64,000 nucleotides of DNA. It comes from Pseudovibrio japonicus (lineage in GTDB: Bacteria > Pseudomonadota > Alphaproteobacteria > Rhizobiales > Stappiaceae). Below are positions 20,081 through 54,225 of the stretch, one piece after another; the first letter of the stretch is position 1; the number at the start of each line of letters is the position of its first letter. The translations under genes were made by a program, and so were the position numbers. Under the pieces are notes generated by a model. It worked only from the letters and a program-made list of their open reading frames with translations, had not been told where the DNA came from and made no database searches. The stretch is taken from positions 310,001-374,000 of the forward strand of contig NZ_BMXE01000001.1 of the NCBI RefSeq assembly GCF_014651595.1, read 5' to 3'.

Positions 20081-20836
20081 TTACTGCAATACCAACCAAT
20101 CGCCCAAACCGGCGTAGAACAACCGCAAGAGCTCGGCAATGACCTGCCAGAGAATGAAAAGTCCGCCCATCATAACTGCTGGAAGGGCAACAAAGTACAC
20201 CGGCATTTGCGGCATAAGCCGGTTGGTGAGACCCAGCGTGAGGTTGACCACGATTCCGTAGATCAGGAACGGGCTGGTGATCCTCAACGCAAGCAACATG
20301 GCCTGCATGAGCTTGGTGGAGAACTGATCAAGGGCAGCAGCGGGGACAAAGTCACCGCCCACCGGAATGGTCCGGTAGCTCTCGGCCAGTCCGATAAAAA
20401 CATCAGCATGAGCACCAGTGATGAACAGCATTGCGGTTGCCGAGAGCGTGATCAACCCAGCCATGGGCGGTAACTGCTGAAATTCTTCCACGATGGCAAC
20501 CGGCTGGTTGAAGCTGGAGGCGTTTGCCGCCGCTCCTGCCATCATTTGCAGCATCCCGAAGAAAGCCCGTCCGAATGCCGCGATCAGAAACCCAATCAAA
20601 ATCTCCACCAGGATGATGCGCAGCAGTTCATCTACGGGTGCCGCCGCGATGATAGGCTGGACCACCACAAGAATGAGCGGCGAGATTGCCAATGTGGCGG
20701 ATATGGCGATGAACAACCGGACACGGATCATGACACGCGGCGATGAAAAGCCCGGCATCGCCATAAGGCAGGCTCCTACGCGGCAGAAGACCACGAAGAC
20801 GCTGAGTATGGCTTCCGGGGCATTTTCCAGTGTCAC
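20081..20836 (-). CDS. fliR: Flagellar export gate protein FliR
   Basis: A 251-residue inner-membrane protein with about six helices. The segment [11 protein letters not shown] and the C-terminal region with [16 protein letters not shown] are characteristic of FliR, part of the FliP-FliQ-FliR export gate. It begins with GTG overlapping the flhA stop by four bases (GTGA), indicating coupled translation. Confidence 0.95.
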
Positions 20837-22914
20837 GAGATTGTTCCCAATGCCTCAATATCAACACCACGCGCCACTTCCAGATGGGAGAGGATTGGCA
20901 ATGCAGGGAACATACGTTCTGTAATCATGCGCACGTATTGGCGCGCTTCGGGCGCAACCACTACAGCAAAGCGGTGACCTGAGGAGATAAGGTCGCGAAT
21001 GATCTCTGAGCTTTCCTTGGCAAACTCTTCGACCTGCTTTGGCTCCATATCAAACTCAATGACTTCGCCATTTGTGTCGCGGCGAAGGGCCTGATGGAAT
21101 GCAAGATCCCAACGGTTGCCAAGGCGCAGAACCTTAAAGCTCCCCTCACCTGCAATGTCGCCACAGATCTGGGTGGCCATGCGAATGCGCACGTGATCGG
21201 TGATTTGCTCTGGTCGGCGAGCGTGCGGCGCGATCTCGGCGATGGCTTCCATGATCAGGGAAAGATTTCGGATGGAGATGCGCTCCGCCAGCAGCAGCTT
21301 CAGGACCGCCTGCAGGCCAGAATAGGAAATGTGCTGCGGGCAGATATCATCAATCAGGCGCGTATAGGCCGGGTCCAGACGCTCCAACAGCTTGCGCATA
21401 TCTTTATATGAGAGCAGCTGGGAGAGGTTGTTTCGGATCACCTCAGACAAGTGGGTCAGGACAACGGAGAGGTTATCGACTGTTGTGTAACCCTGTCGTT
21501 TAACCTCATGTTCAAACGCTGTCGGGATCCACATAGCCTGCATGCCAAAGGCCGGTTCACGTGTCTCTGTGCCTGGGAGCGCAGGAAGATCCCGGTTGCC
21601 ACCAATCACCATCAGCTCGCCAACCTTGATGTTTTCGGAGGCGACAATAGTGCCGTGGATACGGAACTCGTAGCTTTTGGGCTCCAGATTGAGGTTGTCG
21701 GTGACTTTGATCTCTGGAACGACAAAGCCGTACTGCTCTGCGAACTTTTTGCGCATCTTGTTGATGCGGTTTCCGATCTCAGGCTTGGCAGCCAAAAGAC
21801 GTGCGGTGAGCTGTTTGCCCAAACGCATTTCAATTTCAGCAAGATCAAGACTGTCTTTTACGGACTCTTTCTTGACCTCCTTCTCCATTTCAACTTTCTG
21901 AAGCGCAGCTTTGGCCTGCTCATCCTTAGCCTCCTGCGCCTTGATCGGGATGATGTAGGCGGAAAAGCCAAGGACACCACTGAGCAATACAAATGGTAGA
22001 AACGGAAGACCCGGTAGCAGCGACAAGAGCAACAGCATCAAGGAGGCAACAGCAAGCGCGCGCGGGTATCCGGCCAACTGCCCGATCACTGCCTGATCTG
22101 TTGAACCTCTGGTTCCGCCCTTGGAGACAAGCAAACCTGCTGCCAGAGAAACGATCAGGGCCGGGATCTGCGAGACAAGGCCGTCACCCACGGAGAGTTT
22201 GGTGAAGACGTCGGCAGCTTCGCCCAGATCCATATCATAGCGTGTAACACCGATGATGATGCCACCCAGCACGTTGACCACGGTGATGATCAAGCCCGCG
22301 ACAGCATCACCGCGCACAAACTTTGAAGCACCATCCATGGCGCCAAAGAAGGAGCTTTCTTCTTCCAGTTCCGCGCGTCTGCGCTGAGCTTCCTTATCGT
22401 CGATCATGCCTGCGGAAAGATCGGCGTCGATTGCCATTTGCTTGCCGGGAATACCGTCGAGAGTAAAACGGGCGCCCACTTCCGCGATACGGCTGGCACC
22501 CTTCGTGATTACGAGGAAGTTCACTGTCACAAGGATGGCAAAGACGATCAGGCCGATGACAAAGTCACCGCTCATGACAAACTGCGAGAAGCCGTTGATC
22601 ACATACCCGGCGGCTAGAGGGCCTTCATGACCGTTTGCAAGAATAACGCGGGTTGTCGCAATGTTGAGCGCCAGCCGCAGCATGGTTGCGATGAGCAGAA
22701 TAGTCGGGAAGGAGGAGAACTCCAGCGGGCGCTGAATCCAGAGCGACACCATCAAAATCAGAACGGAAAAAGCGACTGAGATTGCGAGGCCGAAGTCGAT
22801 CATGAACGTCGGCATGGGGAGAAACAGTACAGACAGAATGAAGATAATTCCGACTGCAAATCCAATATCACGTTTGCTGTTTGGAGCAGCAATCCCCGTC
22901 GCTGTCTGAGACAT
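20833..22914 (-). CDS. flhA: Flagellar export protein FlhA
   Basis: A 693-residue export-gate protein: about eight N-terminal membrane helices with the conserved cytoplasmic loop ([19 protein letters not shown]) between helices 4 and 5, then a large cytoplasmic nonameric domain (from about residue 330) that docks chaperone-substrate complexes. ATG 22914 has AAGGG just upstream; GTG 22920 is the alternative. Length matches the family. It follows fliQ after an unusual 132-bp gap. Confidence 0.97.
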
Positions 22915-22994
22915 TCGCACCCTTCAAATCGGTATAAGTATACTGAGCTACTTAGGCCGTGACATTGAAGAAGGAAGCTTGTGTGAGGGTGGTC

Positions 22995-28430: not shown

Positions 28431-28479
28431 AATCAGCTCCTGGCTACATCAATTGCAAAATTAACTCCCGCCAGTAAAG

Positions 28480-28494
28480 CTTGTTAATCTTGTC
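28480..28494 (-). promoter_or_regulatory. Candidate flagellar operator upstream of flgE
   Basis: Tandem CTTGT (28480-28484) and CTTGTC (28489-28494) with a 9-bp period, 50-64 bp ahead of the flgE start. The motif is the same as the five GACAAG/CTTGTC copies in the motA/flgF control region. Proposed as a regulator-binding site by analogy only. Confidence 0.4.
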
Positions 28495-28519
28495 TGAGCC
28501 TGACCCTAAAGCCGTTGAA

Positions 28520-33959: not shown

Positions 33960-35644
33960 ACGGCACGCTCCCGGTCATACATCCACTGCTTGAGAATGAT
34001 TGCCGCCTGCATGTCGTCCATTTCAACAGCACGCTCGAGCTTGCGGAGGTTATCGCGGTTCACTACGGTTGTGTCCACGCTGCCACCGGCCATGCCGTCA
34101 CCATTGCTCATATCGGGCAATTGGCCATTTTCGCCTTCGAACTCGCCCTCATGCACTCCTTCGGTGTTGGAGTTCGCTCCAAGTGCAAATCCTTCCGCTG
34201 GTTTCTCTGATTTTGGAATAAGGAATGCAACCGCGGGGCGCAGGCCGAACCAGATGATCATCAAGGTCACAATGAGGATTGCAGCCGCATTGACCACAGA
34301 GCCCATGTTGCGCATCAGCACATCTTGCCAGGTCCGCTCCGGGATGGCGGCGAGCTGATCGCCTGCCAACATAAAGTTCACGGCGGAGACGGAGACCTTA
34401 TCGCCGCGCGCTGGATCGACACCTGCGGCGGTTGCGATGATCTCTTCAATCTCGGTGATTTTATCGCTCAGATCCGGCGCTGCCCCTGCAACGACTGCAT
34501 CGCCTTTTTGCCCGCCAATGCGGCGCGTCATTTCCTGAACAAGACGATCGCGATTAACAAGCACCGCCACACTCATGCGCTCGATGCGATAATCGTCAAA
34601 AATCGTTTCGACTGTTCGGGATGAAATTTCGTAGTTGGTCAGCTCTTCACGGCGCTCGTTTTCTTCCGAGGAGCGCTCGCCGGACTGCGAGGACACAGCT
34701 TCTTCAGGCAGGTTCTGCTCAACAGTGGTCGGGTTTTCGAGACTTGCGTTCTGAGTGCTGGCATTTTCACGCACAACACGGAAGGAGCGTTCGACCCGTG
34801 TTTCCGGATCATACGAGGTTTCAGAGACGCGCTGATTGTCGGTATTCACCGCCGTTGAGACGCTGACCTCGAAGTTGTTCACGCCGAGATACGGAGCCAG
34901 AGCCTGACGGATCGCATTTTCTTTACGCGAGGAAAGATCGGATTCCAGCATCGCCTTGCGCCCGGTGGAAGCGCTTTGCGCATCCTCACCTGCTGCAAGC
35001 AGCTGGCCTTCTGTATCAAGTACGGTCACGCCCTCAGCGGTAAGACCGGGAACAGCGGCGGCAACAAGGTAACGGATGGATTGCGCGACAGTGCTGGTCT
35101 GCACACCTTCTGTGCGAATAAGAACGGATGCAGTTGGCTTCTGATTTTCGCGGCGGAACGTTGCTTTTTCAGGCAACACCAGATGCACGCGCGCGGCTTT
35201 CACGCCCTGCATGCTTTGAATAGAACGGGCAATCTCGCCTTCAAGCGCACGAACTTTTGTCACGCTCTGCATAAAGGAGGTCAGACCAAGGGAGCCCATT
35301 TCATCAAAGAGCTCATAACCAGCGCCAGAGCCACGCGGCAGGCCCTTTTCCGCCAGCAGCATGCGTGCGCGGGCCGTTGCGCCCACGCCTACCGAGATCG
35401 ACGAGCCATCTGCGTTGACGTCAAACGGAATACCGCTGGCCTGCAGCGCCATGCCGATTTGCGTAACATCGTCCCGCTCCAGATTTGCATAGAGAACCTC
35501 CTGCTCCGGACGAGACAAGAGAAATGCTGCTGTGCCAATTGCAACAAACGTAAATAGCCCAACAAGTGCGAGCACGATCAGGCGCTTTGCACCTAACTCA
35601 GCAAGATTACTATAGATTTTTTCGGCGTTTTCACGAGCTGCCAT
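33956..35644 (-). CDS. fliF: Flagellar MS-ring protein FliF
   Basis: A 562-residue inner-membrane ring protein. Helix 1 is near residues 24-44; the YscJ-type ring domains contain VLYANLERDDVTQIGMAL, ARMLLAEKGLPRGSGAGYELFDE and VKAARVHLVLPE; a second helix (VVNAAAILIVTLMIIWFG) precedes the C-terminal tail that binds FliG. ATG 35644 has GAGG five bases upstream; the TTG 35689 frame extension is less likely. It begins a unit fliF-fliH-motB-motC-fliK-lytic transglycosylase. Confidence 0.96.
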   Translation of the reverse strand: MAARENAEKIYSNLAELGAKRLIVLALVGLFTFVAIGTAAFLLSRPEQEVLYANLERDDVTQIGMALQASGIPFDVNADGSSISVGVGATARARMLLAEKGLPRGSGAGYELFDEMGSLGLTSFMQSVTKVRALEGEIARSIQSMQGVKAARVHLVLPEKATFRRENQKPTASVLIRTEGVQTSTVAQSIRYLVAAAVPGLTAEGVTVLDTEGQLLAAGEDAQSASTGRKAMLESDLSSRKENAIRQALAPYLGVNNFEVSVSTAVNTDNQRVSETSYDPETRVERSFRVVRENASTQNASLENPTTVEQNLPEEAVSSQSGERSSEENERREELTNYEISSRTVETIFDDYRIERMSVAVLVNRDRLVQEMTRRIGGQKGDAVVAGAAPDLSDKITEIEEIIATAAGVDPARGDKVSVSAVNFMLAGDQLAAIPERTWQDVLMRNMGSVVNAAAILIVTLMIIWFGLRPAVAFLIPKSEKPAEGFALGANSNTEGVHEGEFEGENGQLPDMSNGDGMAGGSVDTTVVNRDNLRKLERAVEMDDMQAAIILKQWMYDRERAV

Positions 35645-35779
35645 TGCGACCTCTGCAGGTGTATCAATGGCGCTACCTTCGCTTTTCAACCTTGCGCGAA
35701 CGTGATCTGGATTGGCATTATGCGAAAATCCACGGTTTCTCGAAGGCTTGGCAAATAATTCGAGAGAAAATCAACGGGA

Positions 35780-36115: not shown

Positions 36116-36247
36116 CAAACAGTGCTCCGCCTACAGCAAACCAACAGGAGAAAGTTTCATGAACCCTTGTTACATTTACAAATATATTTAGTCGAACTTG
36201 CCTAAACCTGACTTAATACAATTTTATCTAAAATTTTATCGGAAGTA

Positions 36248-37538: not shown

Positions 37539-37690
37539 AATTTTTGTCCCTTGTTTAGAAGAAATGGGACATTCCGGATCTAAATGCCGGAGTTACAGAA
37601 TAGCATCATGCACTTTGAGGTTCAAAGCCTGTAACAGAGCTTCACGATGACTCATGAAACTTACGCCAACCTGACTCAGAGCCTAAGGCA

Positions 37691-38988: not shown

Positions 38989-39699
38989 TTAGAGCGGACT
39001 AATGATATCAATGACTTGCTGCCCTATGCTGGGTTGCTGCATTTCGGTTACACGTCCGCGGCCACCATAGGACACGCGTGCTTCAGCGATCTTGTCATAC
39101 TGAATCGTGTTGCGACCGGTGATGTCTTCAGGACGCACAATGCCCGCGACAGACAGGACACGAACCTCGTAGTTGACGCGCACTTCCTGCTGTCCGGAGA
39201 TGATAAGGTTGCCGTTTGGGAGCACTTTGGTGACCACGGCTGCGATGGAAAGATTGATTTCCTCACTCCGATCGATTGCGCCCTGCCCCTTGCTGCTTGT
39301 TGCACCAGAGCCGGAAACACTTACATCTGCTTCACCTGAATCTACCTCACCCCAGGAGAACGCCCCGCGCAAGCTGGTTGAACGCGATGAGTCCCGTTTT
39401 CGCTCACTGGAATTGTCCAGTTTTGCCTTGTCGTTGATTTTGATCGCGACCGTCAGCACGTCACCCACTTGCTTTGCACGCGGATCACGGAAGAAATCCT
39501 GCTCACCATCCGCCCAAAGCCCGTGATAAGCACGATTGGTGCGGCCACTGTTCTTCGCCGGAGCCGCTGGAAGAGCTGCAACGTTTGGCTGAAGCCCCTG
39601 CCCTAGCGGGGTTAACTGAGGCTCCTGACCAACGTTTTTCATGGAACTACAGCCAGTTAGCGTAATTGCGGCGAAAATGCATACCAAAGTGCGCTTCAC
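38989..39699 (-). CDS. flgH: Flagellar L-ring protein FlgH
   Basis: A 236-residue outer-membrane lipoprotein. The lipobox is LTGC (Cys17) after a short signal; FlgH motifs are LWADGEQDFFRDPRAKQVGD, DVLTVAIKINDKA, and LPNGNLIISGQQEVRVNYE. It builds the L ring. Its ATG overlaps the motE stop by four bases. Confidence 0.96.
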   Translation of the reverse strand: MKRTLVCIFAAITLTGCSSMKNVGQEPQLTPLGQGLQPNVAALPAAPAKNSGRTNRAYHGLWADGEQDFFRDPRAKQVGDVLTVAIKINDKAKLDNSSERKRDSSRSTSLRGAFSWGEVDSGEADVSVSGSGATSSKGQGAIDRSEEINLSIAAVVTKVLPNGNLIISGQQEVRVNYEVRVLSVAGIVRPEDITGRNTIQYDKIAEARVSYGGRGRVTEMQQPSIGQQVIDIISPL

Positions 39700-40247
39700 T
39701 GTGTGTCTCCCATACTCTGTTTTGCGGCTTGTCGAGCTGTAAGTTCTGCCATCATGTCTGTGAGGTATGCAGCACGGTCCGCAGACAGCTCAGCCAAGAC
39801 CGAACCGGCTTTGCGGGCTTTCATCTGCAAGAGAATTGAAACTGCGGTTTCATCATCCAGCGCGGTGAGCTGCTGTGCGGCTGCATCCGGTCGCATATTG
39901 GCATATATATCAACCACATGCCCCTCTGCACGACGCAGGATGTCATCGCGGCGTTTGACCCAGCTGCGTAGCTCTGCGATTTTTGCGTCGAGCTCGGAAA
40001 TCTTGGATGTCATCTGATGTTCGACATCAAACAAAGCCCGCATCTGCCAAGCAATTCGAGTGTCTTTTGCCTGATCAGCAATCGCTTCACAGTAATTTCT
40101 GGCCTGCTCGATCGCAGCGCTCAGATCTTGTGTCTCTTCTTCGCTTGTCTGAGCGCTTGCAGTTGCAAGCGACACGCACAAACCGAGAGATACCACTGCA
40201 CACTTCAGCGGAAAGAATTTCTTCTTAGAAAGCTTTAGGAGAGGCAT
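39696..40247 (-). CDS. motE: MotE-like periplasmic chaperone
   Basis: A 183-residue protein with a signal peptide (ending ATASAQ), a coiled coil (about residues 75-110) and a C-terminal MgtE-N-like helical domain (IYANMRPDAAAQQLTALDDE, ILLQMKARKAGSVLAEL). In Sinorhizobium MotE is the specific chaperone of MotC, and the gene lies between flgI and flgH there as here. Confidence 0.92.
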   Translation of the reverse strand: MPLLKLSKKKFFPLKCAVVSLGLCVSLATASAQTSEEETQDLSAAIEQARNYCEAIADQAKDTRIAWQMRALFDVEHQMTSKISELDAKIAELRSWVKRRDDILRRAEGHVVDIYANMRPDAAAQQLTALDDETAVSILLQMKARKAGSVLAELSADRAAYLTDMMAELTARQAAKQSMGDTQ

Positions 40248-40282: not shown

Positions 40283-40306
40283 AAGCCACAAGCTTGCCCG
40301 TGGCTT
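40283..40306. repeat. Hairpin in the flgI-motE gap
   Basis: AAGCCAC (40283-40289) pairs with GTGGCTT (40300-40306) in the 78-bp spacer, one of the few gaps in this operon. Likely an mRNA stem-loop; no T-run. Confidence 0.45.
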
Positions 40307-43539: not shown

Positions 43540-43920
43540 CTATCTCCCTAAGCTGGACTTCATCAAACCGTAGAAGGACCCAACAAGTTGGGTGTTGAGA
43601 GAATGCTGCCTAGCAACCTCACCCGATTTAATCAGTTCTTGTTCCAGGGAAACGGAGTTATCAGAGACAGTGACTTGCCAAGCGTCACCATCATTTACGC
43701 GCACACGGCGAGAATTTGTACCATCCTCACTGATGTGCCCTGACTGAGTCGCCGCCATGCGGATGCTGGTCTTGTCCAAAATGTCCTTGAAAGGCTCAAC
43801 ATCCTTACTCGCATAGCCAGGAGTATCGACGTTTGCAATATTTTCGGAAATTGTTGATTGCCGCACGGACAACCAAGAATTCTGCCGCGAAACCAAACTA
43901 AAAAGATATACGGGCTCCAA
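43540..43920 (-). CDS. flgB: Proximal rod protein FlgB (TTG start)
   Basis: A 126-residue protein starting [20 protein letters not shown] at TTG 43920, as in rhizobial FlgB. GGAG lies exactly eight bases upstream (43929-43932). No in-frame ATG gives a family-like start: the frame runs up to 44010 without one. The rod motif is [15 protein letters not shown] and the C-terminus [20 protein letters not shown]. It begins the flgB-flgC-fliE-flgG-flgA-flgI series. Confidence 0.9.
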
Positions 43921-44083
43921 AAAATCCACTCCGCTACAAAAACTGCCCGAATTTGATAGCAGTGCAATCTTGTCCGTAGCTGGTGGAATCAACTTTCTCT
44001 CAAAAACCAAAGAGATTTACTGAGTTAGTCAAGTATTTATCTTTAATTTAAAATTTTATATTAACAAAATGTTAAAATGAAAA

Positions 44084-47832: not shown

Positions 47833-48778
47833 CCAGAAGTTCCCCTTCCTGCTCGATCAACTCTTCTACGCGGACGGTGTACGACCCTGCGACCTGACCG
47901 AGACGGCAGTTAAACAAGGGCTGGCCGTTGCATTCGAGCTGGACGGCAGTCTTTGGTGTGGCATTCAATTCAAGAACAAGCCCAACCTCGAACTGCGCCA
48001 CTTCTTCCAGCGTCATGCGCTGCTCTTCGAGAATGGCGGTAAGCTGGACTTCGGTGCGCTGAACTTCCTGCTGGAACTGTTTCGTCCAACGGGTATCGCG
48101 ACCTGCAACTTCGCCGGAAAGCACCTGTGTCAGGTTCTCGCGCAGTGGATTGAGCACCGACTGAGGAATGATGATGAATATCTCACCTTCACGACCAATG
48201 ATCTCCGCTGTCATCTTCGCAAGTACGCACGGATTACTTTTCCGCCCGGTCTGCGCAAATTCCATTCGGTTTTCGAGGCGCTCGACTTTCAGCGACGTAT
48301 CGGCGATAGCCTCAAACGCGGTCTCCAGCGCCGTCGCTGCTTCCTGAAACATTCGATAGGCGAGCCGCTGCTCTACGTTGGTCAAGGCGCGATCTTCCAA
48401 GAACGCTTCTTCCTCACCATCGCCACCGAGAAGAACCTCAACCATGGAGAAGATGAAGGCACGGTCAAAACCGAGCAAGATACGCGCGTCCCACTCCTGC
48501 GCATGAAGAACAGCAACAACAGCGCGATCCTCATACTGCTCAAGTGCATCACCGATGCGCTCGTTGGAGACTGACTCTACAGCCAGATACGGCGCAGTTG
48601 CAGCCATCTGGCGGAGCGTATCAATGTACTGACGCGCCATCCGGTCAAAGACCACGTGCAGCATGGGGAGACGATCAACACCAAGACCCGCCGCGTCCAG
48701 CAGGCGAGAAGGAAGATCCATCTTGGCACCCTGAGCGGCAATCATCTCTTCGCTCATTTCCATTTCTTGCGGATCCAT
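47813..48778 (-). CDS. fliM: Flagellar motor switch protein FliM
   Basis: A 321-residue C-ring protein. The middle domain has GFDRAFIFSMVEVLLGGDGE and LTNVEQRLAYRMFQEAATAL; the C-terminal SpoA domain has EVGLVLELNATPKTAVQLEC and PLFNCRLGQVAGSYTVRVEE. The N-terminus (MDPQEMEMSEEMIAAQGAKM) lacks the usual LSQ.EIDALL peptide that binds phospho-CheY. One-base overlap with the motA stop (TAATG). Confidence 0.94.
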   Translation of the reverse strand: MDPQEMEMSEEMIAAQGAKMDLPSRLLDAAGLGVDRLPMLHVVFDRMARQYIDTLRQMAATAPYLAVESVSNERIGDALEQYEDRAVVAVLHAQEWDARILLGFDRAFIFSMVEVLLGGDGEEEAFLEDRALTNVEQRLAYRMFQEAATALETAFEAIADTSLKVERLENRMEFAQTGRKSNPCVLAKMTAEIIGREGEIFIIIPQSVLNPLRENLTQVLSGEVAGRDTRWTKQFQQEVQRTEVQLTAILEEQRMTLEEVAQFEVGLVLELNATPKTAVQLECNGQPLFNCRLGQVAGSYTVRVEELIEQEGELLDDILSN

Positions 48779-49668
48779 TACGCCTCACCTTCCGCGGCAG
48801 CAGCGGCCACAGCAGGACCAGCAGTCATTGTTTCCACCTCAACTTCATCAATTGTCGGACGATCATCTGCACCGATGGTTTTGCGACCATGCTCCAGAGC
48901 AATCTGCGGCGCTGCGCCATTCATAAAGGCAAGCAGCGTTTGCTTCACCTCGATATAGAGACGGTAGCGCTGTTCGCGGACGGCCTTGATCTTGACCGCA
49001 ATTGGGCTAACAATGCCGTAGGACAAGAAAATTCCAAGGAATGTACCAACGAGTGCAGCACCAATCAGGTTACCAAGTATCTCCGGCTCCTGATCAATCG
49101 CTCCCATAGCCTTAATAATACCAAGCACAGCAGCGACAATGCCAAGAGCGGGCAGAGTTTCAGCCACAATACTCAAAGCCTGATAAGGCTTCATCTCTTC
49201 ACGACCAAGCGTGTGCAGCTCTTCATCCATCAGCGCCTCAATCTCATGAGGGCGAACATTTCCAATGATAATGAGACGGAAGTAATCGCAGATGAAACTT
49301 GTCAGTGAGACATTGGCAAGAACCCGCGGAAAACGCTGAAACAATTCAGCCTCTTCCGGCCTGTCAATAATTTGCTCAACGTCGTTACGCCCTTTTGCAC
49401 GAAGGGTTCTCATAAGCCCATAAAGCACACTAAGCGTATCCAGATGGTCACGCTTTGTAGGCTTTGCGTTCAGCAACGCCTCCTGAATACCACGTCCGGT
49501 ATCCTTAATCGTTTTGAAGGTGTTTGCCACCACGAACGTACCAAAGGCAGCGCCCCCAACAATCAGCAGCTCAAAAGGTTGCCACAGCACCTTCATATAG
49601 CCACCCATAGCAACATAACCACCAATGATGGATCCAATAACGATCACCAGACCGACTAGAATATTCAA
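48778..49668 (-). CDS. motA: Flagellar stator protein MotA (probable TTG start)
   Basis: A 296-residue, four-helix stator subunit. NILVGLVIVIGSIIGGYVAM GG-type N-terminus, FELLIVGGAAFGTFVVANTF, the cytoplasmic loop with RPHEIEALMDEEL, and LPALGIVAAVLGIIKAMGAI plus LGNLIGAALVGTFLGIFLSY in helices 3-4. TTG 49668 matches the family start and has GGAG six bases upstream; a second TTG at 49695 with AGGA is the alternative. Ala/Glu-rich C-terminal tail. Confidence 0.93.
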   Translation of the reverse strand: MNILVGLVIVIGSIIGGYVAMGGYMKVLWQPFELLIVGGAAFGTFVVANTFKTIKDTGRGIQEALLNAKPTKRDHLDTLSVLYGLMRTLRAKGRNDVEQIIDRPEEAELFQRFPRVLANVSLTSFICDYFRLIIIGNVRPHEIEALMDEELHTLGREEMKPYQALSIVAETLPALGIVAAVLGIIKAMGAIDQEPEILGNLIGAALVGTFLGIFLSYGIVSPIAVKIKAVREQRYRLYIEVKQTLLAFMNGAAPQIALEHGRKTIGADDRPTIDEVEVETMTAGPAVAAAAAEGEA

Positions 49669-49988
49669 TTTGCGCTCCACACACTTATTGGACAAGCACT
49701 TTTCCTAGTTTGTGGTAGCGAGGCTTACTTGTCCGAAACTGGCGTGAAGAAATTCAGATCGCCACATATCCAGCTACAGGTTCAGACAAGCCATCTGAAG
49801 CATTCTCTTGTCGTATTTGAGTGTAGACAAGTTTGTTATGATCGACACAACAGTGCAGTACGCTATGTCCACCATAGCCTGAGTACCTCCGCGAGATACT
49901 CAGCCATGGATCATCTGGTCACCTGCCGAGCACTCCGTTTTGAGCAACAAACCTTCACCAACAAGTCGTTCGGACCTGGAGCATAAAC
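49669..49988. promoter_or_regulatory. Divergent motA/flgF control region with five GACAAG repeats
   Basis: A 320-bp spacer between the minus-strand motA unit and the plus-strand flgF unit. It contains GACAAG at 49691-49696, 49785-49790 and 49826-49831 and its complement CTTGTC at 49728-49733 and 49807-49812. The copy at 49785 lies within the inverted repeat TTCAGA-7-TCTGAA (49782-49800). About 0.15 copies would be expected by chance in this length. Plausibly the binding array of a flagellar master regulator such as FtcR, encoded 3 kb away (inference). Confidence 0.6.
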
Positions 49989-50714
49989 ATGATTGTATCT
50001 TCTCTTTACGTCTCCCTTTCCGGGCAGATGGCGCTGGAACGCAGACTTGATACCGTTGCACGAAATGTAGCCAATATGGAAACTGCGGGTTATCGCGCGG
50101 ATGAGGTCAAGTTCGACAGTCTTGTAAAACGCCCGGGGCAAGATCCGGTGTCCTTTGCATCGACTGGAGAAACCTACATCTCAAGAGAAGCAGGAGCCGT
50201 CAAACAAACCGGCAACTCGCTTGATGTAGCGATTGAAGGCAAGGGCTGGCTGGGGGTGCAAACCGGAAATGGCGTAGCCTATACTCGTGATGGTCGCTTC
50301 CAGATCGGAACCGACGGTATTCTCAGAAGTATCGAAGGCAACCCAATCCTCGACAGTGGCAATGCTCCCATAATCCTCGACCCACTAGGTGGTGCACCAG
50401 AGATTGCCAAGGACGGCTCAATCTATCAGGAAGATCGCCAAGTTGGGGTTCTCGGCCTCTTCTCCATTCCTGAAGATGCAAAACTAAGCCGGGCAGGCAA
50501 TTCAGCGGTCATACCTGATGCATTGGCAGAACCGGTGCAGGATTTTGCAGAGAACGGCTTTGTTCAGGGATTTGTTGAGGGATCCAATATCAATCCAATC
50601 TCGGAAATCACCAAGCTCATTACCATCACGCGCGCATTTGAAAGCACAAACTCGATGATGCAGAGCGTGGAGAGCATTCGCCAGCAGACAATTCGTAAGC
50701 TCGGAGAGAGCTGA
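49989..50714 (+). CDS. flgF: Proximal rod protein FlgF
   Basis: A 241-residue rod protein. N-terminus SLSGQMALERRLDTVARNVA with NMETAGYRADEVKFDSLV, middle LDVAIEGKGWLGVQTGNGVA, and C-terminus NPISEITKLITITRAFEST. It opens the plus-strand flagellar unit; its TGA overlaps the next ATG. Confidence 0.96.
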   Translation: MIVSSLYVSLSGQMALERRLDTVARNVANMETAGYRADEVKFDSLVKRPGQDPVSFASTGETYISREAGAVKQTGNSLDVAIEGKGWLGVQTGNGVAYTRDGRFQIGTDGILRSIEGNPILDSGNAPIILDPLGGAPEIAKDGSIYQEDRQVGVLGLFSIPEDAKLSRAGNSAVIPDALAEPVQDFAENGFVQGFVEGSNINPISEITKLITITRAFESTNSMMQSVESIRQQTIRKLGES

Positions 50715-52796: not shown

Positions 52797-53471
52797 TTAC
52801 AGCGAATTGATAATGTAGCCAAGGTAGCGTTTTGAATCGATGGGGTCGTACCCCATTTGACTACGCAGCTTTTTCCTCAGCTTACTTATGTGGCTTTCAA
52901 TGACATTCTCGTCAACTTCGCTCTCAAATATACCGTAGACGAAGTTGTAGATCTGAGTCTTTGTAAGACGTCGGCCATTGTTTTGTGCAAGATACTCAAG
53001 AATACGACGCTCTCTGCGCGGCAGCGCCAATGTCTTCCCGTTTATTTCGGGATCCCTCCCATCGAAAAACACAGTTAAACCACCAAGCTCGACATTGATG
53101 CTCTGGTTTGTTGTTCTCCGCTTAATTGCGTTTACACGCGCAAGTATTTCTTGCGGATGTACTGGCTTTCGAACAACATCATCTACGCCAGCAGCAAAAA
53201 GTTTCAGCGTCTGCTCAAGAGCCGGGCTGCTATTGAGAACCAATACCGGCTTTTGAGTGCACCTGCGGCGTATGATCTGCGGGAAGTTTTCCCTCTCTCC
53301 AATCTCGCCGATCAAAATTGCCTCGACGGCCTCAAATTCAGTCTCAGGCGCAGTATTTAACCAATCCCGAAAATCATCCGGGCTAAAGCCACTTGTCGAA
53401 ATACCTTCTCGCTCAAATCCTGATGCATACCCATCGGTCACAAGCCGTTGTTCATCAACAATTAAATACAT
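52797..53471 (-). CDS. ftcR: Flagellar transcriptional regulator FtcR/Rem, OmpR family
   Basis: The 224-residue protein has a receiver-like N-terminal domain and a C-terminal winged HTH (about residues 125-224: [49 protein letters not shown]). It matches FtcR of Brucella and Rem of Sinorhizobium, OmpR-type activators of flagellar genes. The receiver keeps Asp6/Glu7 and Lys102 but has Gly55-Glu56 (AILIGEIG) where the phospho-acceptor Asp belongs, so phosphorylation there is unlikely. ATG 53471 (AGG upstream) preferred over GTG 53474. Confidence 0.92.
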
Positions 53472-54225
53472 CACCCCAACCTATTCATTCCAAAATGAAT
53501 ACACTGCTGGTAAATCAGAGAAACGCTTCCTGTCAATTTCTCATAAAGTTTTTTTACAGTCCAGACCAAGTAAAAGCATAAGACAAACTATAGTAATTAT
53601 AATAGAAAATAAAAATAAATTTTACTTTGAATTTTAATTTAATGCAAATTACGGGTGCTAAAAACTGCCATTTTTCGAATTCTGCGAGATGCGAAACTCT
53701 ATTTTCAATACCTCGATTTTTCATACCGTGATATTTTAAGGGCATATTTTTGCCACATATTCACCACAAATAAGTTCGCGTTAAGCGCGAAAATTCCTTG
53801 GGATAAACTATTTGCAGTTTTAAGTTTGCTCATGACGCTGCAAGGAGTAGAATCGAAAAAAGGTCTTAAATCGGAGAAAACATCGCGTATTATTACGTAC
53901 GAATGCAATTGTAGTTCCGATGTGGATTTATGGAATATGCTCCGTTAACCAATCAATTCTTAGTAGGCATCATTTACCTACTTCAAAATTGAATTAATTC
54001 TCCTAGAACTTTAGATAATTAAGATTGCAATACTCTCTAATACTGATCGCACTCGGGTTCCAATATGCGCGCAAACTGCTTCTCTTCTTAGGATCAGATC
54101 TGCAGCTAACAGGTGGACATATTTAACTTTTGGATGAGTTTCATCTCAGGTTATGTACTATTGCGTTTCGACCCAAATAAACCTATTTGCACATCCAAAA
54201 GAAATCGGCTCGTGCAGGAGACACA
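53472..54225. other. AT-rich gene-free region upstream of ftcR and ugd
   Basis: About 750 bp, clearly AT-richer than the rest, especially 53560-54000. It holds the divergent promoters of ftcR and ugd. A 97-codon plus-strand frame at 53655-53948 has unusual composition and no Shine-Dalgarno and is not convincing as a gene. No tRNA, repeat family or mobile-element end was seen. Its composition suggests a regulatory island or the remnant of transferred DNA. Confidence 0.5.

Follow-up and report, generated by a model that had tools for sequence, protein, structure and literature searches.

Divergent 18-bp direct-repeat boxes between motA and flgF of Pseudovibrio japonicus as a probable target of an FtcR/Rem-like regulator

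The gap between motA and flgF in Pseudovibrio japonicus probably holds a divergent promoter pair, in which each promoter comprises an 18-bp direct-repeat box with a −10 element at a fixed distance, and which dimers of an FtcR/Rem-like regulator would activate. The window analysed here is a stretch of 64,000 nucleotides (contig NZ_BMXE01000001.1, positions 310,001 to 374,000). At each promoter the box, CAGCYTCRSRCAAGCTT, would lie at about −36 to −19, as numbered from the −10 element, and take the place of a −35 element. The regulator, an OmpR-type protein that appears to have lost its phosphorylation site, would bind as a head-to-tail dimer and recruit the sigma-70 polymerase. The spacing of the two boxes would place them on the same face of the helix, so their dimers may cooperate, and the motA-fliM-fliN-fliG-flhB and flgF-fliI operons could be fired together. 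The same box would start the flhA, flgE, fliF, flaA, motE and flgB operons, and through this common element the level of FtcR would set the whole flagellar system. The features of the motA-flgF region are as follows.

48778 to 49668, minus strand: motA, with a TTG start.
49691 to 49696, plus strand: extra GACAAG in the predicted motA leader, outside any box, found at this position in 9 of 13 genus mates.
49712 to 49717, minus strand: −10-like hexamer TACCAC of motA, at the fixed spacing of the −10 in other genera.
49724 to 49741, minus strand: box for the leftward motA operon, CAGTTTCGGACAAGTAAG in gene sense, with a CTTGTC core that all 13 genus mates share.
49777 to 49794, plus strand: CAGGTTCAGACAAGCCAT, the box that serves the DUF1217-remnant/flgF operon on the right and stands inverted to that of motA.
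49801 to 49806, plus strand: −10-like hexamer CATTCT of the flgF side, with a predicted start near 49813.
49807 to 49812, minus strand: extra CTTGTC at the predicted flgF-side start, in 0 of 13 genus mates.
49826 to 49831, plus strand: extra GACAAG in the leader, in 0 of 13 genus mates.
49838 to 49882, plus strand: decayed start of a DUF1217 gene, MIDTTVQYAMSTIA in translation and then a stop.
49989 to 50714, plus strand: flgF, followed by an unnamed ORF and then fliI.

The initial annotation had read this gap as an array of five GACAAG/CTTGTC elements that forms the FtcR/Rem operator. Five exact copies do lie within 141 bp, at 49691 (+), 49728 (−), 49785 (+), 49807 (−) and 49826 (+), and the accompanying estimate that chance predicts well under one copy is sound, as the Poisson probability for a fixed place is 1.6e-7. 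Among 2079 strand-collapsed hexamers in the window this is the single one to reach five copies in 141 bp, and the richest 141 bp across 400 kb of the same contig holds two. The whole window contains 56 copies, compared to 36.8 expected from shuffles, and a density of 0.875 per kb compared to 0.552 in the 400 kb. The case for the five-copy array as the operator lies in this excess over chance.

Conservation argues against it. The gap was read in our genome and 29 relatives, with the divergent motA start measurable in 25 of the 30, and genus-mate counts refer to the 13 of 15 genus mates that have a measurable motA gap. A FlgF search of named genomes gave nine loci, seven from Pseudovibrio and two distant. 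The copy at 49728 is exact in all 13 genus mates and that at 49785 in nine, the other four (L015, L018, L019 and L020) having GGCAAG instead while retaining the longer box and the surrounding 14-mer. The copy at 49691 is mostly kept, as are the bases adjoining it in the motA leader, whereas the remaining two are missing from every genus mate measured. Because two of the five are not conserved, the lack of conservation that the initial annotation had itself named as counting against its reading is found in part. Moreover, the exact hexamer is present in just 4 of 9 boxes of our genome and 3 of 48 boxes of other genera. On these two grounds the five-hexamer array was rejected as a unit, and we consider it hardly credible as the operator. 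Since the box survives where 49785 is inexact, the conserved objects are two longer back-to-back elements, one per gene. The apparent array of five is two divergent boxes and three extra hexamers; the hexamer itself is not the functional unit, and its cluster is mostly a by-product of the two boxes. The proposal of an FtcR/Rem operator was probably right in kind, as the box stands at flagellar operon leaders and tracks FtcR, but the hexamer does not hold as its element.

In all 21 of 21 genomes the motA box departs from the typed pattern by no more than one mismatch, and the flgF-side box was a zero-mismatch match in the whole-genome pattern search. Their matrix scores of 10.5 and 11.0 are low and fall among background scores, which leaves conservation and position as the case for these two boxes. 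The −10 hexamer of motA is weak and has no final T, with a start predicted near 49705.

The box contains an 11-bp direct repeat, AGCYTC-N5-AGCTTG, and is followed at a fixed distance by the −10 element TAnnnT. Wherever the gene concerned was found in 20 relatives and our own genome, the box mostly precedes it with its orientation unchanged; this covers motA, flgE, flaA, flhA, fliF and the DUF1217 side, with single genomes lacking it at single genes. An ungapped stack of 48 sites from other genera gave CAGCYTCGCGCAAGCTT with TAnnnT at a fixed distance. This training stack covers five leader genes in ten genomes of other genera, was chosen with a typed 14-base pattern, and was reduced from 49 rows to 48 when one fliF row (G028) was dropped. 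Typed patterns were used to choose the sites, which means that selection partly shaped the box letters and the repeat test, but not the −10. The −10 occupies positions 24 to 29, with 1.21 bits at A25 and 1.85 bits at T29. When the 18-bp box alone was used to select sites in 18 further loci of the order, the 65 obtained (compared to four in the 16 FtcR-minus loci) again showed the −10, with 0.62 at T24, 0.81 at A25 and a weaker 0.52 at T29. The correlation between columns at a lag of 11 is 0.77 (permutation p = 0.0002; any lag, 0.0022), with p-values somewhat too good because the sites were found with typed patterns, and it is 0.65 in the order set. Column statistics thus show, for these predicted promoters, a box joined to TAnnnT at fixed spacing. 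The 11-bp repeat has the geometry of an OmpR/PhoB-type site, which would make the box a stand-in for the −35 element. As expected for that type, the direct repeat has a period of 10–11 bp, and the box overlaps the −35 position of the predicted starts at a fixed distance from the −10.

The distance from CAAG to the −10 is rigid, at 10 bp in the other-genus stack, and the box keeps a single orientation relative to its gene. Both features would also be expected if the box were the −35 region of an alternative sigma factor dedicated to flagellar genes, which we judge very unlikely: the −10 TAnnnT is sigma-70-like, the box greatly exceeds a −35 in length and shows an 11-bp repeat symmetry, and typed sigma-54 and FliA patterns are absent from the nine sites of the window. 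Specifically, the sigma-54 pattern YGGCR-N6-TTGC occurs at 0 of 9 own sites and in 2 of 48 other-genus contexts, and no FliA promoter pattern occurs at the nine. The CtrA box TTAA-N7-TTAA is found at 0 of 9 and 0 of 48, and the motif TGTGGGCA, given for FtcR in the available part of a Brucella ChIP-seq report (PMC9456535), at 0 of 9 own sites with 40 bp each side and 0 of 48 other-genus contexts. CtrA, sigma-54, FliA and the Brucella FtcR motif were rejected as identities of the box on their absence from the window's nine sites.

Besides motA and the DUF1217-remnant/flgF operon, flhA, flgE, fliF, flaA, motE and flgB are boxed in the window, and one further box precedes a small ORF.

22974 to 22991, minus strand: flhA box, score 19.1, with −10 CAATGT at 22962–22967.
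28485 to 28502, minus strand: flgE box, score 19.7, with −10 TTTACT at 28473–28478.
35687 to 35704, minus strand: fliF box, score 20.1, with −10 GAAGGT at 35675–35680.
36193 to 36210, minus strand: box preceding a small ORF that lies ahead of fliF, score 13.0, in close Pseudovibrio only.
37656 to 37673, minus strand: box of the flagellin gene flaA, score 17.3, with −10 CATCGT.
40289 to 40306, minus strand: motE box (gene outside the training set), score 17.8.
43965 to 43982, minus strand: flgB box (gene outside the training set), score 15.5.

FlhA (window 20836–22884) was identified by NCBIfam TIGR01398. The tandem CTTGT-N4-CTTGTC that the initial annotation had reported before flgE was located as CTTGT-TAAT-CTTGTC at 28480–28494. 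The small-ORF site is box-like, with at most two mismatches, in all six genomes where the ORF was found. The MotE-like gene (39696–40247) encodes an MgtE_N domain and has its own boxed promoter within the family; among order-level motE regions, 1 of 16 has a box. The listed ORF starts of fliF and flgB look too far upstream, the probable true starts lying downstream of the boxes: near 35644 for fliF, by reading (window 35644–35704), and near 43920 for flgB, where the NCBIfam match begins at ORF residue 31 (window 43918–44010).

A matrix trained on other genera only was used to scan 464 kb of our genome, consisting of the 64-kb window and the 400 kb. The five best matches are fliF, flgE, flhA, motE and flaA, and flgB is the seventh, behind one background match. 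Five matches above 16 occur in the window and none in the 400 kb. Above 10, the window has 12 matches, nine at the listed boxes and three (46027, 19655 and 23691) away from leaders, and the background in the 400 kb amounts to eight.

Per-gene counts of same-strand matches above 14, which include the ten training genomes, are 28/39 for motA, 25/30 for flgE, 18/23 for fliF, 21/28 for flhA and 14/21 for flaA, and for the untrained genes flgB and motE they are 21/30 and 19/36, respectively. The low value for flgF (4/38) arises because its box usually precedes the DUF1217 gene. Nineteen other, non-leader flagellar genes gave four matches in 561 regions. For 18 order loci alone we see 13/18 for motA, leaving five FtcR-plus loci with no motA match above 14, and 12/16 for flgB. 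Across these 18 FtcR-plus loci the matrix gave 50 matches above 16, compared to 0 for the reversed matrix and a mean of 0.8 (maximum 3) for 20 column-permuted matrices. Of the 37 matches above 18, an automatic filter assigned 17 to the 250 bp that precede a gene start; when the sites were read, the other 20 proved to comprise 11 at flgB, seven at the divergent partner of motA and two elsewhere.

Genome-wide, the matrix is unspecific. The whole-genome pattern gave 43 matches, compared to seven for the reversed control. Thirty were examined: six correspond to promoters already known from the window, 19 fall within ORFs of at least 150 aa, and five are intergenic elsewhere; one of the other 13 is the C6 DUF1217 site discussed below. 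Six of the 30 score at least 16 away from known flagellar genes (22.6, 18.6, 17.2, 17.1, 16.5 and 16.1). An attempt to define a genome-wide regulon from the pattern alone failed, with 19 of the 30 examined matches falling inside ORFs. Five downstream genes were read, four of them behind intergenic sites and one behind the in-ORF site L158; by eye, three of the five resemble purC, a phosphatase gene and thiD, and one encodes a GGDEF protein (Pfam). Most such stray sites are probably due to chance. The site before the GGDEF protein (L163, G000:C3:571461-571490) is weak and box-like, with a score of 10.9, and lies 50 bp upstream; the protein has a sub-threshold CHASE4 match and could possibly link flagellar control to cyclic-di-GMP.

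The candidate binder is encoded in the same locus as the divergent promoters.

52797 to 53474, minus strand: FtcR/Rem-like orphan OmpR-type regulator (Pfam Trans_reg_C and a degenerate receiver).

The initial annotation had placed an FtcR/Rem regulator in this locus, and an OmpR-type regulator gene is indeed there; that it is FtcR/Rem is our assumption, made from its domains, its gene neighbourhood and general knowledge of the family. All 41 of 41 homologues have I, F or V at residue 53, which occupies the place of the phospho-Asp in an alignment to 1kgs, and they share a nearly invariant DNA-binding helix. A blind search of 397 genomes for back-to-back boxes found 16 and 23 genomes in two distance ranges, where a reversed control found one in the first range and none in the second. 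Leaving our own genome aside, FtcR is present in 36 of 38 paired-box genomes, compared to 24 of 121 genomes in a sample of the order; the two exceptions, G074 and G287, had been marked doubtful beforehand. Sixteen flagellar loci that lack FtcR (309,915 bp) contain five matches above 12 and one above 16 that resembles a terminator hairpin. FtcR is thus present in nearly all paired-box genomes, and above 16 the box, this one match aside, is absent from the 16 FtcR-minus flagellar loci. There are two main classes of FlhA. One of them, at 55% identity or more, occurs in 20 genomes, all of which have FtcR, and four FtcR genomes (G023, G103, G153 and G158) have no FlhA at that identity. A box was found at 0 of 21 rem regions, and rem autoregulation through the box was rejected.

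Our own genome, of 4.96 Mb, has two flagellar systems. The second, divergent system (G000:C3:111324-113357 and C3:477595-479093), with a second FlhA on contig C3 and, at another place on that contig, a second FlgF/FlgG pair, is of the class found in genomes without FtcR. Its 60 kb contain one box match, of 18.3.

From the co-occurrence, together with a repeat geometry typical of the family, we infer that FtcR binds the box. Co-occurrence alone does not distinguish among genes that were inherited with the system, so another regulator that travels with it, be it VisN/VisR or an unknown factor, might be the binder; the Brucella FtcR motif, in the published part available, also differs from the box. 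We nevertheless find this unlikely, as the box is an 11-bp direct repeat whereas LuxR-type regulators usually take inverted repeats, and as the DNA-binding helix of FtcR is nearly invariant over the same range of genomes. In the available part of one review, moreover, Rem stands below VisNR and is presumed to be the direct activator (PMC4018554), and FtcR/Rem stays our preferred candidate.

The distance between the upstream ends of paired boxes clusters near 14, 24, 35, 45 and 56 bp, with a period of about 10.5 bp. Values fall mostly within 13–15, 23–26, 33–37, 43–47 and 55–57 bp, with exceptions at 10, 11, 19, 38, 39, 106, 125 and 132 bp and single cases of 77 and 99 bp; our motA/flgF boxes are 36 bp apart. 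Among distances up to 63 bp, reduced to a single value for each genus in each spacing class (n = 29), R was 0.61 at 10.5 bp, a value reached in none of 20,000 random sets, for a null that began at 10 bp and a pattern search that permitted shorter distances; the best period in this set was 10.9 bp. One value per family and spacing class (n = 21) gave R = 0.59 (p = 0.0004), and shared descent is just partly removed by either collapsing. The set omits six rows with one box at or below 7.4, repeats of close relatives and G008 (132 bp), and, to gauge sensitivity, G287, G074 and the second G130 pair were first excluded and then restored. Pooled and family tables were compiled by hand, and the pairs from the blind search are presumed motA pairs, one of which (G130) lies away from motA. 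This second back-to-back pair (G130:C2:489013-489084), 45 bp apart, perhaps marks another divergent flagellar promoter.

The period of the box spacing suggests cooperation on the same face of the helix. Somewhat short of even confidence, we propose a broader reading: the motA/flgF boxes could form a helically phased bidirectional switch with two cooperative same-face FtcR dimers that would turn on the stator/switch and the rod/ATPase operon jointly, in which the phase would be selected and steps of 10–11 bp would be free to vary, and the box could define the FtcR/Rem/LafR regulon throughout the order.

In many relatives a gene lies between the divergent boxes and flgF. It matched DUF1217 (Pfam) in six of eight relatives tested (L010, L014, L018, L020, L022 and L027), with shorter frames and no Pfam match in L012 and L013, and the genus mates L010, L014, L018 and L020 carry the full gene. 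In our genome a DUF1217 remnant is left upstream of flgF (window 49838–49988) and the promoter box is retained. A PF06748 search of the genome found the C6 copy only, an unlinked DUF1217 gene (G000:C6:117273-118289; L050, L189) with a box of score 13.3 about 50 bp before its start. The box before this unlinked gene suggests that the DUF1217 protein is a member of the flagellar regulon.

Methylosinus is a genus of the same order. The part of a study of Methylosinus sporium 5 available to us describes a ‘Motif 3’ at the same genes, called novel and given without a regulator (PMC12403871); it is likely identical with our box. In the literature searched we found no published Rem or LafR site of this sequence, and an earlier description may exist. 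The accessible main text of an S. meliloti TSS paper does not contain ‘flagell’, and its three de novo motifs, as described there, differ from the box (PMC3616915).

Rem, LafR and FtcR are described as master flagellar activators of the order, and an agreed binding site was not found in the literature searched. The box would give a testable answer to what FtcR/Rem recognises. With the −10 rule, it would make regulons predictable from sequence and account for which operons are leaders. It conflicts with the Brucella ChIP motif, TGTGGGCA, as published in the part available; the same source reports autoregulation of FtcR (PMC9456535). Rem, for its part, is presented in the available text as a regulator of the OmpR type that is believed to act directly on flagellar genes as their activator (PMC4018554).

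Among known systems, the Bradyrhizobium lateral cluster with lafR has, in the part of the report available, a gene list closely similar to that of the window (PMC6406911). Rem of Sinorhizobium, LafR of Bradyrhizobium and FtcR of Brucella are, like the candidate regulator in the window, orphan OmpR-type masters of a flagellar cluster. The pho box resembles our box in its direct repeat with an 11-bp period, its role as a stand-in for the −35 and its fixed distance to the −10. The CtrA site TTAA-N7-TTAA and the FeuP candidate TTCA-N7-TTCA likewise are direct repeats with an 11-bp period. The half-site of the box differs from those of these OmpR/PhoB-type class II boxes (pho, CtrA and FeuP), and, unlike regulators of that type, the candidate encoded in the window has no phosphorylatable Asp.
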